From Bacteroidaceae bacterium (GTDB lineage: Bacteria; Bacteroidota; Bacteroidia; Bacteroidales; Bacteroidaceae), in the NCBI GenBank assembly GCA_024688885.1, contig JAILDV010000030.1:1-64000 (forward strand): DNA of 64,000 bases, in the 5' to 3' direction. Shown piece by piece: positions 19,879 through 33,171 of this stretch; the first letter of the stretch is position 1, and each line of letters opens with the position of its first letter. A program made the translations under genes and the position numbers. The notes below the pieces were generated by a model. That model did not search any database. It saw nothing but the letters and a program-made list of their open reading frames with translations, and was not told where the DNA came from.

Positions 19879-19979
19879 CCCACGAATTGAAAGAATCATA
19901 CGAATTTTTCCATGCAGACACTATCTGATAGCAATTACAACTTATTCTCTTATTCTTTCAATTCATCTGATTCATGGGA
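19879..19979. repeat. Palindromic iteron element, diverged copy
   Basis: Left arm CCCACGAATTGAAAGAATC has iterons at 19882, 19891 and 19900. The right arm has inverted iterons (ATTC) at 19952, 19961 and 19970. Spacing is exactly 9 bp in both arms. It shares the loop text GCAGACACTATCTGATAGC with the array at 20457. A C-to-A change in the left arm (GAATTGAAAGAAT) is matched by G-to-T in the right arm (ATTCTTTCAATTC), keeping complementarity. Confidence 0.9.
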
Positions 19980-19986
19980 GAATATC

Positions 19987-20388
19987 TCATTTAACGCGGC
20001 GATGGATTGAATGAACAATGTCATCAGTATTAAAATTAACCAGAAGTCCGAGATGCTTTCCTGTCAATTTCAAATATGTGTCAATTTGCAAATAAAACAC
20101 ATCCTTCATTTCCAAAACTGATTTCAATTCCACTATTACCAAATCTTCAACCAATATATCCAACCTCAAATCAGTATCTATTCTTTTTCCATCGTAGAGA
20201 ATAGGGACTTCTATCTGCCTTTCGACTTTCAAATCTCGTTTCTTTAATTCATAAGCCAAAGCTGCCTCATACACACTTTCCAACAATCCGGGGCCAAGTT
20301 TATTATACACATCATAGATTGCGCCTATGATAGTATAGCTCAAATCATTTTCCTCCTTGTATTTTAGTCTATCTACACTATATCCCAT
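19987..20388 (-). CDS. GxxExxY protein (PD-(D/E)XK-like nuclease fold), copy 1
   Basis: 133 residues. The name motif is GLLESVY in KLGPGLLESVYEAALAYEL near residue 34; a nuclease-like D...ExK core follows in DLRLDILVEDLVIVELKSV, then FYLQIDTYLKLTGKHLGLLV and NFNTDDI. The family is widespread, small and of unproven function. The gene lies between two pieces of the palindromic iteron element (19879-19979 and an orphan right arm at 20401-20431). It seems unrelated to polysaccharide synthesis. A second family member at 32510 has the same type of neighbourhood. Confidence 0.85.
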   Translation of the reverse strand: MGYSVDRLKYKEENDLSYTIIGAIYDVYNKLGPGLLESVYEAALAYELKKRDLKVERQIEVPILYDGKRIDTDLRLDILVEDLVIVELKSVLEMKDVFYLQIDTYLKLTGKHLGLLVNFNTDDIVHSIHRRVK

Positions 20389-20399
20389 ATCACAATTTT

Positions 20400-20431
20400 T
20401 CCAATTCGTTTAATTCACCAGATTCGTAGGA
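20400..20431. repeat. Orphan right arm of the iteron element
   Basis: ATTCG, ATTCA, ATTCG start at 20404, 20413 and 20422, 9 bp apart, ending GATTCGTAGGA as in the full units. It lies just upstream of the GxxExxY start codon. Confidence 0.75.
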
Positions 20432-20456
20432 AAATCATACTTCTTCTTTTGCATCG

Positions 20457-20822
20457 CCCACGAATTGAACGAATTATACGAATTTCCCCATGCAGACACT
20501 ATCTGATAGCAATTACAACTTCTTTTCTCTTATTCGTTCAATTCGACAAATTCGTGGGAAAATCATACTTCTTCTTTTGCATCACCCACGAATTGAACGA
20601 ATTATACGAATTTTCCCAGGCAGACACTATCTGATAGCAATTACAACTTCTTTTCTATTATTCGTTCAATTCGACAAATTCGTGGAAAAATCATACTTCT
20701 TCTTTTGCATCACCCACGAATTGAACGAATTATACGAATTCATCTTTGCAAACAGCTTATCACACTAAACATAATACGCATTGAATTTCTTTATGATTCG
20801 TTCAATTCGTCAAATTCGTGGG
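20457..20822. repeat. Array of three palindromic iteron units, 128-bp period
   Basis: Units begin at 20457, 20585 and 20713, exactly 128 bp apart. Each has a left arm of three ACGAATT iterons at 9-bp steps (first unit: 20460, 20469, 20478) and a right arm of three inverted iterons (ATTCG at 20532, 20541, 20550), ending in AATTCGTGGG opposite CCCACGAATT. Units 1 and 2 share the loop; unit 3 keeps both arms but has a different loop. Short plus-strand frames across the array are translated repeat, not genes. The array fills the 438 bp between the GxxExxY and GNAT genes. Confidence 0.92.
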
Positions 20823-20826
20823 CGTA

Positions 20827-32425: not shown

Positions 32426-32509
32426 CCTTGTCTCGCCTGAACACCTTGAAGAAATAGATAATGAGTGAAGAAATAAGAAGTAAATCCAAATCAGTAAATA
32501 TAATAAGGA

Positions 32510-32953
32510 TTAAGATTGGATGTAGTTACGATAGTTTTCTTCTTTCAGAAGAACAAAATCATCTGTTTCTTGTTGGTAGAGATAACGTTCAGCTGCAAAC
32601 TTTTTTCCGCCAAAATTCATGAGAATGCCTCGGATTTGCTTAGTTATGCGCATATAATTAAAGAGTTGCGCACGATGATCACTATCAAATGTCGAGACTG
32701 ATTTCAATTCAACAATCACTCCATCTACTACAAAATCCGCCTTGTATTGTTTCTTTAATTTCTTACCCTTATAAAATGTATCCAGCCACACTTCTCTATG
32801 AGGATTCATCCCCCGATCCATCAATTCCATATCCAATGCCTCTTGATAAATAGGTTCCTCCATTCCTCTTCCCAATACATTGTATACCTCCATTGCTGCC
32901 CCAACGATGTTATACATGACAATGTACTCATCTTTTGTAATACAAGTCTTCAT
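32510..32953 (-). CDS. GxxExxY protein (PD-(D/E)XK-like nuclease fold), copy 2
   Basis: 147 residues. Motif GMEEPIY in VLGRGMEEPIYQEALDMEL, nuclease-like core in KKQYKADFVVDGVIVELKSV, then HRAQLFNYMRITKQIRGILM and NFGGKK. Only distantly like copy 1 (19987), so the two were probably acquired separately rather than duplicated here. Upstream (minus-strand sense) lies a symmetric eight-iteron element at 33022-33171. It interrupts the polysaccharide operon between an acyltransferase and a GT4. Confidence 0.85.
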   Translation of the reverse strand: MKTCITKDEYIVMYNIVGAAMEVYNVLGRGMEEPIYQEALDMELMDRGMNPHREVWLDTFYKGKKLKKQYKADFVVDGVIVELKSVSTFDSDHRAQLFNYMRITKQIRGILMNFGGKKFAAERYLYQQETDDFVLLKEENYRNYIQS

Positions 32954-33021: not shown

Positions 33022-33171
33022 GAAAGTAAATTTCATGTAAATGCGGAGTAAATTTTAACCAGTAAATAAACTTTTAGTACAATGTACAATCAATAATCAG
33101 ACACTGGAAGACAAAACCTCATTATATTTACTCGAATAAATTTACTTCGTATTTACTCCACATTTACTTTC
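33022..33171. repeat. Mirror-symmetric iteron element of the GTAAAT type
   Basis: GTAAAT starts at 33026, 33037, 33048 and 33062; the inverted form ATTTAC starts at 33126, 33140, 33151 and 33162. Spacings are 11, 11, 14 on the left and 14, 11, 11 on the right, exact mirror images. The ends GAAAGTAAAT and ATTTACTTTC are also complementary. The centre contains GTAC-AAT-GTAC. Confidence 0.9.

Follow-up and report, generated by a model that had tools for sequence, protein, structure and literature searches.

Inverted arrays of short words flank a GxxExxY gene of a Bacteroidaceae bacterium and recur at GxxExxY genes within and outside Bacteroidota

Results

Organization of the locus

The window, that is, the whole 64-kb stretch of DNA analysed here, contains a GxxExxY gene surrounded by nine 27-bp arms, four left and five right, one of the right arms being an orphan (Table 1). 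Each arm comprises three ACGAATT-type words at 9-bp steps (ACGAATTnn), and the right arms are the reverse complement of the left ones. The gene is localized between the complete unit 1 and the orphan right arm, outside any loop. The left arms of units 2 to 4 are identical and spaced exactly 128 bp apart, so that the exact 128-bp period of the original prediction holds for these left arms. The last right arm lies 136 bp past the preceding one because the loop of unit 4 differs; this is the full unit that had been described as keeping the same arms around a different loop. A loop resembling that of unit 4 is present at locus L231 of genome G228.

Table 1. Features of the window.
Feature	Position	Strand	Description
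Unit 1, diverged	19879..19978	.	left arm 19879-19905, loop, right arm 19952-19978
GxxExxY gene	19987..20388	-	133 aa, compact PD-(D/E)XK nuclease fold
Orphan right arm	20404..20430	-	15 bp upstream of the GxxExxY start codon
Unit 2	20457..20558	.	arms 20457-20483 and 20532-20558
Unit 3	20585..20686	.	arms 20585-20611 and 20660-20686; left arm exactly 128 bp past that of unit 2
Unit 4	20713..20822	.	arms 20713-20739 and 20796-20822; loop differs from other units
Second GxxExxY gene (L004)	32510..32953	-	147 aa, different sequence type
Facing AGTAAAT then ATTTACT words	33025..33168	.	upstream of second gene

Within the window, tandem ACGAATTnnACGAATT words (up to one mismatch) are confined to the array at 19879-20826. 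Searching the whole 3.03-Mb genome for the triple word with up to three mismatches gave 43 matches, some of them overlapping and 24 of them exact, against none for the reversed control pattern; the array is therefore far beyond chance. The original description of inverted arms of 9-bp iterons around the GxxExxY gene is confirmed. The same words occur at about a dozen other places in the genome where no GxxExxY gene was found.

The genome (G000) carries five GxxExxY matches, including the window gene and L002 to L005. Upstream of L004, exact words are 11-22 bp apart within each of the facing arms, and extra AGTAAAT words are found at 32479 and 32493 on the other side of this gene. L002 (G000:C26) is tightly bracketed, with a left arm overlapping the stop codon and a right arm beginning a few bases ahead of the start codon. 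L003 has long inverted arms with GAATAATT-type words on both sides. L005 (G000:C8:55843-56082) matches the profile at positions 3-82 only and has no visible arms; it is probably a decaying, truncated-looking cassette.

Gene-less ACGAATT units with an arm, loop, arm arrangement are present at C7, C22, C31, C38 and C61, and elsewhere. L024 holds a gene-less unit whose ends match, by eye, those of the L003 cassette. Composite units were seen at L019, L021, L022, L024 and L029, with ACGAATT arms beside or inside ACGGATT-type words; they share a hairpin-rich loop.

The GxxExxY protein

The window protein matches TIGR04256 (E 1.4e-40, 138.3 bits against a curated cut-off of 35) and PF13366 (E 5.5e-40, 136.8 bits against a curated cut-off of 22). 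Its structure, predicted with AF2, has a pLDDT of 94.3. A search of the PDB by sequence gave no match up to E 1, and the nearest PDB folds to the predicted structure are SSO0001, which we take to be a Cas4, LHK-Exo and lambda exonuclease, the similarity to the best of them, SSO0001, being modest (E 2.8e-3, TM-score 0.55). Among 38 sequences, E37, D77, E87-x-K89 and Y105 are invariant and Q101 is kept in at least 90%. GxxExxY thus has the E, D, ExK, QxxxY pattern that is presumably the motif of the Cas4/lambda-exonuclease group, in which its best fold matches also lie. It differs from Cas4 in size, with 133 residues against 202-206 for the SSO0001 chains, or about two thirds. Omega is 0.06 between the window gene and L231 of G228, and its median is 0.055 over 20 gene pairs of the genus. 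Together with the invariant catalytic residues, an omega of about 0.05 suggests that the enzyme is probably active and maintained by selection.

GxxExxY proteins form a common, functionally uncharacterised family, with TIGR04256 matches in 101 of 198 sampled genomes of the phylum Bacteroidota. The gene is rare on plasmids (8 of 72,556 records), no match was found in 50,697 phage records, and a scan of viral contigs gave one relative. The accessible parts of the literature mention GxxExxY in passing, in a reverse transcriptase classification and for an algal virus. In full-text searches, whose coverage leaves out most subscription papers, TIGR04256 was absent, PF13366 was barely named, and the results on REP, MITE and IVS elements contained no link to a GxxExxY gene.

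GxxExxY genes are paired with inverted arms

Within the genus, 35 of 45 genomes have a GxxExxY match, for a total of 113 matches. From these, 93 loci were drawn, and 91 gave a gene with its flanks (L217 and L235 were dropped). A strict detector, requiring an identical word three times in succession, was tried and rejected: it found near matches at only 7 of 35 genes and also matched elsewhere. The arms being too degenerate for it, we used an arm score that compares the upstream flank with the reverse-complemented downstream flank, and set it against control pairs. The inverted flanks exceed the 99th percentile of 2217 control pairs at 68 of the 91 genes (68 of 90 without the mis-called L229) and lie above every one of these controls at 64 (64 of 90 without L229), and 23 of the 91 genes fail the arm test. 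The window gene, with an arm score of 10.5, is just over the 99th percentile, probably because it sits between units and not in a loop.

In a wider set of loci, mostly from Bacteroidota, 111 of 119 gave a gene with flanks, the other eight being dropped for want of a gene call or at a contig edge. At 66 of these 111 genes, the inverted flanks score above the 99th percentile of 5064 control pairs drawn from these loci. In the direct orientation 30 of 111 do so, an excess that tandem units could explain. Facing words of the form C[AG]C[ACGT][AG]AG, counted where each side has two or more, are found at 53 of 107 genes versus 3 of 5950 control pairs; this motif was picked post hoc, after viewing the flanks, and the controls were scored with the same motif (110 of 114 loci used, 107 with full flanks). 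On the proper strand, the word density is 1.5-1.8 per gene in the adjacent 50 bp versus roughly 0.06 further off. Word-to-word distances are most frequent at 9-10, 21 and 31 bp, which is nearly a whole number of DNA turns.

In a scan with the protein pattern, the best 80 of 575 loci were named, survey loci being in general the best-scoring ones, and group names were assigned from record titles, many of which denote metagenome bins. By title these best 80 of 575 are mostly from Bacteroidota, and the others include Planctomycetota, Chloroflexota, Acidobacteria, Verrucomicrobia, Gammaproteobacteria, Omnitrophota, Cyanobacteria and two archaeal bins. Compared with other ORF boundaries, 39 of 75 genes in this best-scoring set exceed the control 99th percentile. 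Facing words, of the same post hoc motif, are present at 33 of the 75 genes versus 1 of 278 control ORFs; for groups outside Bacteroidota, again among the best 80 of 575, the count is 12 of 25, or 8 of 19 without Ignavibacteria, Melioribacter and Chlorobi. GxxExxY genes of Planctomycetota, Chloroflexota, Neomarinimicrobiota and Gammaproteobacteria are among those with facing words. Neither of the two archaeal loci has at least two words on both sides; a Methanosarcinales locus has inverted flanks, with a score of 16.5.

GxxExxY genes are therefore truly and generally paired with inverted word arrays, as seen at 68 of 91 genes of the genus and 53 of 107 of the wider set. As evidence against such a link, the original prediction had named the same arrays being as frequent far from these genes. 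This applies in part: such arrays are found at a distance, but as gene-less units with the same words.

At L048 (G162:C30), a GxxExxY gene is enclosed in a long array in which ATCTGTG words are repeated every 47 bp to either side.

Words follow the protein clade

The words assigned to protein clades by eye include ACGAATT, ACGGATT, CGATAATT/CAATAATT, AATAATTAG, CACAGAAA and others, and a further clade word, AAATATAAA, adjoins a GCGGC hairpin. The expected co-variation of word and protein clade was examined by comparing the left arm of one cassette with the right arm of another, at non-homologous sites. The share of pairs with alike arms rises with protein identity, from about 1% or less below 45% identity to 5% at 45-60%, 50% at 60-80% (n=131) and 92% above 80% (n=13). 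The correlation between identity and likeness is 0.15, a value reached in 0 of 2000 permutations, in which the mis-called L229 was still included. Word and protein thus travel together, in agreement with that expectation. Since the cassette may move as one piece, the correlation between arm and protein is by itself no proof of recognition.

In one protein clade (L281-L283, L287, L288 and L290), AT-rich word arms stand beside a GCGGCAAGCCGC-type hairpin, so that hairpin and word array are combined.

Cassettes and units are present or absent at fixed sites

Both anchors of the window's site were found in 16 of 18 fetched loci. The window and G228 carry units plus gene, 12 loci are empty, G231 has exactly one gene-less unit, and G207 (L479) has a gene-less AGTAAAT-type array instead. 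With filled, single-unit and empty states at this site, the window array looks like a single unit that multiplied, the gene being gained or lost.

The site of L002 on C26 is matched in 42 of 45 genomes. Thirty fetched loci comprise 9 GxxExxY cassettes, that of the window's genome included, 20 empty loci with 81-83 bp between the anchors, and one further locus, L074, described below. The words of these cassettes are ACGAATT, ACGGATT, ACAGATT or a degenerate ACGAAT. At four gene-less sites of the window's genome, relatives are filled, lack the unit or have other sequence.

Gene-less units are dispersed and one family has jumped

Gene-less units are dispersed, and in one family, defined by ACGGATT arms, they have clearly jumped. 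This family of about 165 bp is the clearest mobile one, with five near-identical complete copies in G227 and more in G204, G238, G240 and the window's genome. Partial copies also occur, many at contig ends, where some may be halves of one copy; five of them share a longer left flank. Flanking direct repeats with a score of at least 9 border 5 of 11 complete copies versus 1.8% of 110 mispaired flanks, and the duplications are about 9-13 bp long. For two of the G227 insertions, empty sites are found in G238. One insertion is clean, with a 13-bp duplication (12 of 13 alike), and the other has a less exact duplication. This evidence of target duplication concerns the ACGGATT family only, to which the window's own units do not belong. 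At the C26 site, the left arm of the G227 cassette is like that of the ACGGATT family at 29 of 31 positions.

Gene cassettes show a weak excess of flanking duplications with a score of at least 10 (6 of 110 versus 7 of 1095 mispaired). As target duplications, those at L242, L232, L228, L248 and L251 were rejected by eye, these loci looking like arrays with the gene between units, the window's own layout; the sixth such cassette, L061, falls outside that by-eye reading.

Genomes that have a cassette with a given word hold more gene-less arms of that word (one-sided p of 4e-4, 4e-3 and 2e-4 for three words). These values are optimistic because the species are related; the ACGAATT and ACGGATT labels overlap, two substitutions being allowed, and the CRATAATT set includes G207 as a manual addition. 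Many ACGGATT arms without a matching cassette among the genes read are found in G204 and G232, and many such CRATAATT arms in G204, G233 and G240. G201 and G241 have no GxxExxY match and yet 15 and 12 CRATAATT arms. Several of the genomes having arms without a matching cassette are incomplete assemblies. In the loci read, where contigs often end inside repeats, no autonomous partner sharing these ends and encoding a transposase was recognised.

In G227, a longer repeat (ACGTCAGTTCGATGAATTCC...) is joined to an ACGGATT unit at L358, L361, L365, L367 and L368, four of these five places being at contig ends. It is possibly a larger mobile element that carries the unit. A larger composite repeat of G227, inside which contigs end, was considered as a candidate autonomous partner.

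The original interpretation is supported in part: a role of the arrays as a mobility signal, one of its readings, is backed by the dispersed units, by presence and absence at fixed sites and, for the one family, by duplications and empty sites.

PF05635 genes in the same architecture

Genes matching TIGR02436 (PF05635) are present in 114 of 148 genomes. Of the 30 best-scoring PF05635 loci, 16 have flanks that score above the 99th percentile of 1311 control pairs, and at seven the score is above all controls. At L074 (G233:C12), on the reverse strand around 1927-2400, a PF05635 gene lies between inverted AAGAATTA-type words; this is the C26 site, where relatives carry GxxExxY cassettes. The PF05635 protein is presumably a four-helix bundle. 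Since PF05635 genes occur in arms of the same kind, this architecture does not depend on a nuclease. The two proteins may act on such ends in different ways, or the ends may be moved by something else.

Classical IVS elements lie inside 23S rRNA and are cut out of the RNA by RNase III. In the accessible text of one report, the Coxiella IVS is a 428-nt selfish element with an S23 ORF (PMC4990558). The elements described here resemble the 23S rRNA IVS (S23/PF05635) in being short inserts with a single small ORF, and in Bacteroidota many S23/PF05635 genes sit between inverted word arrays. They differ in their protein, S23 being unrelated to GxxExxY.

Discussion

The finding is real and much wider than first described. 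GxxExxY genes are paired with arms within and outside the phylum, the words depend on the protein clade, and gene-less units carry the same words. To this pairing are added the duplications and empty sites of one family, cassettes that are present or absent at fixed sites, and an encoded protein under strong purifying selection. The reading that we favour, at about even odds, is that the window belongs to a widespread minimal mobile-DNA system operating in the manner of REPIN-RAYT (REPtron). Such a system would comprise two parts. The first is a short GxxExxY gene for a putative PD-(D/E)XK nuclease like those of the Cas4/lambda-exonuclease group. The second is a pair of inverted arms on both sides, each with about 3-4 copies of a 5-8-bp word spaced one DNA turn or a little less apart. 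These arms are also present as gene-less palindromic units at other intergenic places, sometimes as tandem arrays like that of the window. GxxExxY molecules would bind the words along one arm, the two arms would be brought together, and the nuclease would make or process ends at the element. The unit would then be inserted at a staggered cut, giving a duplication of roughly 9-13 bp. We infer that GxxExxY may bind the words and may move the units, alone or with a host or trans-acting enzyme.

Among known systems REPIN-RAYT is the closest, and in layout and behaviour the present one is REPIN-RAYT-like but made from unrelated parts. According to the accessible parts of two papers on REP/REPIN-RAYT, a small nuclease-type gene lies beside palindromic repeats, which also form dispersed gene-less doublets, clusters and tandem arrays; repeat types go with the enzyme, and arrays also occur beside the gene (PMC3116915, PMC8266576). 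The GxxExxY gene is likewise bordered by palindromic repeats that also exist as dispersed gene-less doublets. The window gene, in contrast, is of the PD-(D/E)XK type and not an HUH (Y1) tyrosine transposase TnpA-REP, and its arms are word arrays, versus the GTAG-tagged hairpin of REP. Flanking duplications are found here in one family. A given tnpA-REP is mostly in single copy, without evidence of mobility in the accessible text (PMC8266576), whereas GxxExxY occurs in several diverged copies per genome, with presence and absence at sites. Two other repeats from the literature were considered. In BrickBuilt of Porphyromonas gingivalis, tandem repeats of 23 nt are combined with small inverted-repeat ends (PMC4596501). 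The TAACTGA repeats of Beggiatoaceae were rejected as an instance of the present arrays, being direct heptamers before start codons in an account whose accessible text does not mention a nuclease (PMC4679880).

The strongest alternative, which we regard as rather unlikely though deserving of weight, is that the units are MITEs moved in trans by an unrelated transposase, with GxxExxY and PF05635 as passengers, as regulators or as indirect helpers. The units resemble MITEs and IS elements in being short, intergenic and gene-less, with inverted ends and many copies, and the ACGGATT family also has flanking duplications and empty sites; their ends differ in being iteron arrays. An ordinary DDE transposase working in trans would equally produce duplications of about 9-13 bp, and movement by an unrelated transposase would fit the PF05635 genes in the same architecture, the genomes with units and no GxxExxY match, and the gene cassettes without clear duplications. 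Against passenger genes stand the words that follow the protein clade at non-homologous sites, the invariant catalytic residues and an omega of about 0.05. Facing words in at least four other groups are not explained by a passenger of one local transposon either, and no third type of gene was noticed between such arms in the loci read.

The arms could also be operators or bidirectional terminators, GxxExxY or another protein binding the phased words near the start codon and autoregulating its gene, and the gene-less units being decayed remnants. This would suit the arms, whose ends are often no more than a few tens of bp away from start and stop codons, and a word spacing that fits one face of the helix. 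We find it improbable, since arms far outnumber GxxExxY genes in genomes such as G000, G212 and G234, one family consists of near-identical copies with flanking duplications, and an operator has no need of an inverted copy after the stop codon.

Slightly less probable still is recruitment of GxxExxY by the host, for repair or recombination at repeats that would be chromosomal binding sites and not mobile DNA. Strong purifying selection, the near absence of the gene from plasmid records and the lack of a match in phage records argue for such a role, against which stand its patchy presence within the genus, its several diverged copies per genome and its presence or absence at fixed sites.

Finally, the arms might encode a structured RNA, as had also been suggested, or a cruciform, base pairing being what is selected. 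Word conservation is imposed by the search pattern, so that the spacers, of 2 nt in the ACGAATT family, are the only fair test. In 26 ACGAATT units, the spacers are complementary across the arms in 43 of 104 cells (41%) versus 38% in mispaired units. In 23 ACGGATT units, the figure is 60 of 92 cells (65%) versus 49% in mispaired units, inflated by the close kinship of these copies; GATAATT words gave no unit for this test. A search of Rfam gave no match at gathering scores. Base pairing is thus probably not what maintains the arms, and words that are conserved between spacers that are not fit protein-binding DNA better than an RNA stem. Palindromic units, GC-rich hairpins in some loops and flanks and the ACGGATT spacers speak for selected base pairing, which the ACGAATT spacers and the Rfam result make the least credible of the readings considered here.

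Returning to the REPIN-RAYT-like reading, a bolder version of it, which we put forward tentatively and rate below the reading itself, is that GxxExxY and its arms may form a new class of minimal transposon. Its sole protein would be a Cas4-like nuclease recognising an iteron code specific to each clade, and the class would extend across many bacterial phyla, the gene being found also in two archaeal bins. It would seed many of the palindromes of Bacteroidota that have a 9-11 bp period. The PF05635 cassettes would be a sister class with a non-nuclease protein, so that one kind of iteron-bounded end would serve two unrelated proteins.

The bracketed genes and the scattered gene-free arrays indicate an undescribed kind of minimal mobile DNA. 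The link to inverted iteron arrays suggests a role of the GxxExxY family that can be tested, and a candidate enzyme for a large class of intergenic repeats. Should the nuclease read the words, the many protein-word pairs of natural clades would be a ready data set on the recognition code of this very small DNA-binding enzyme. Should it move the units, GxxExxY and its arms would have arrived independently at the way of life of REPIN-RAYT, as a second such system.
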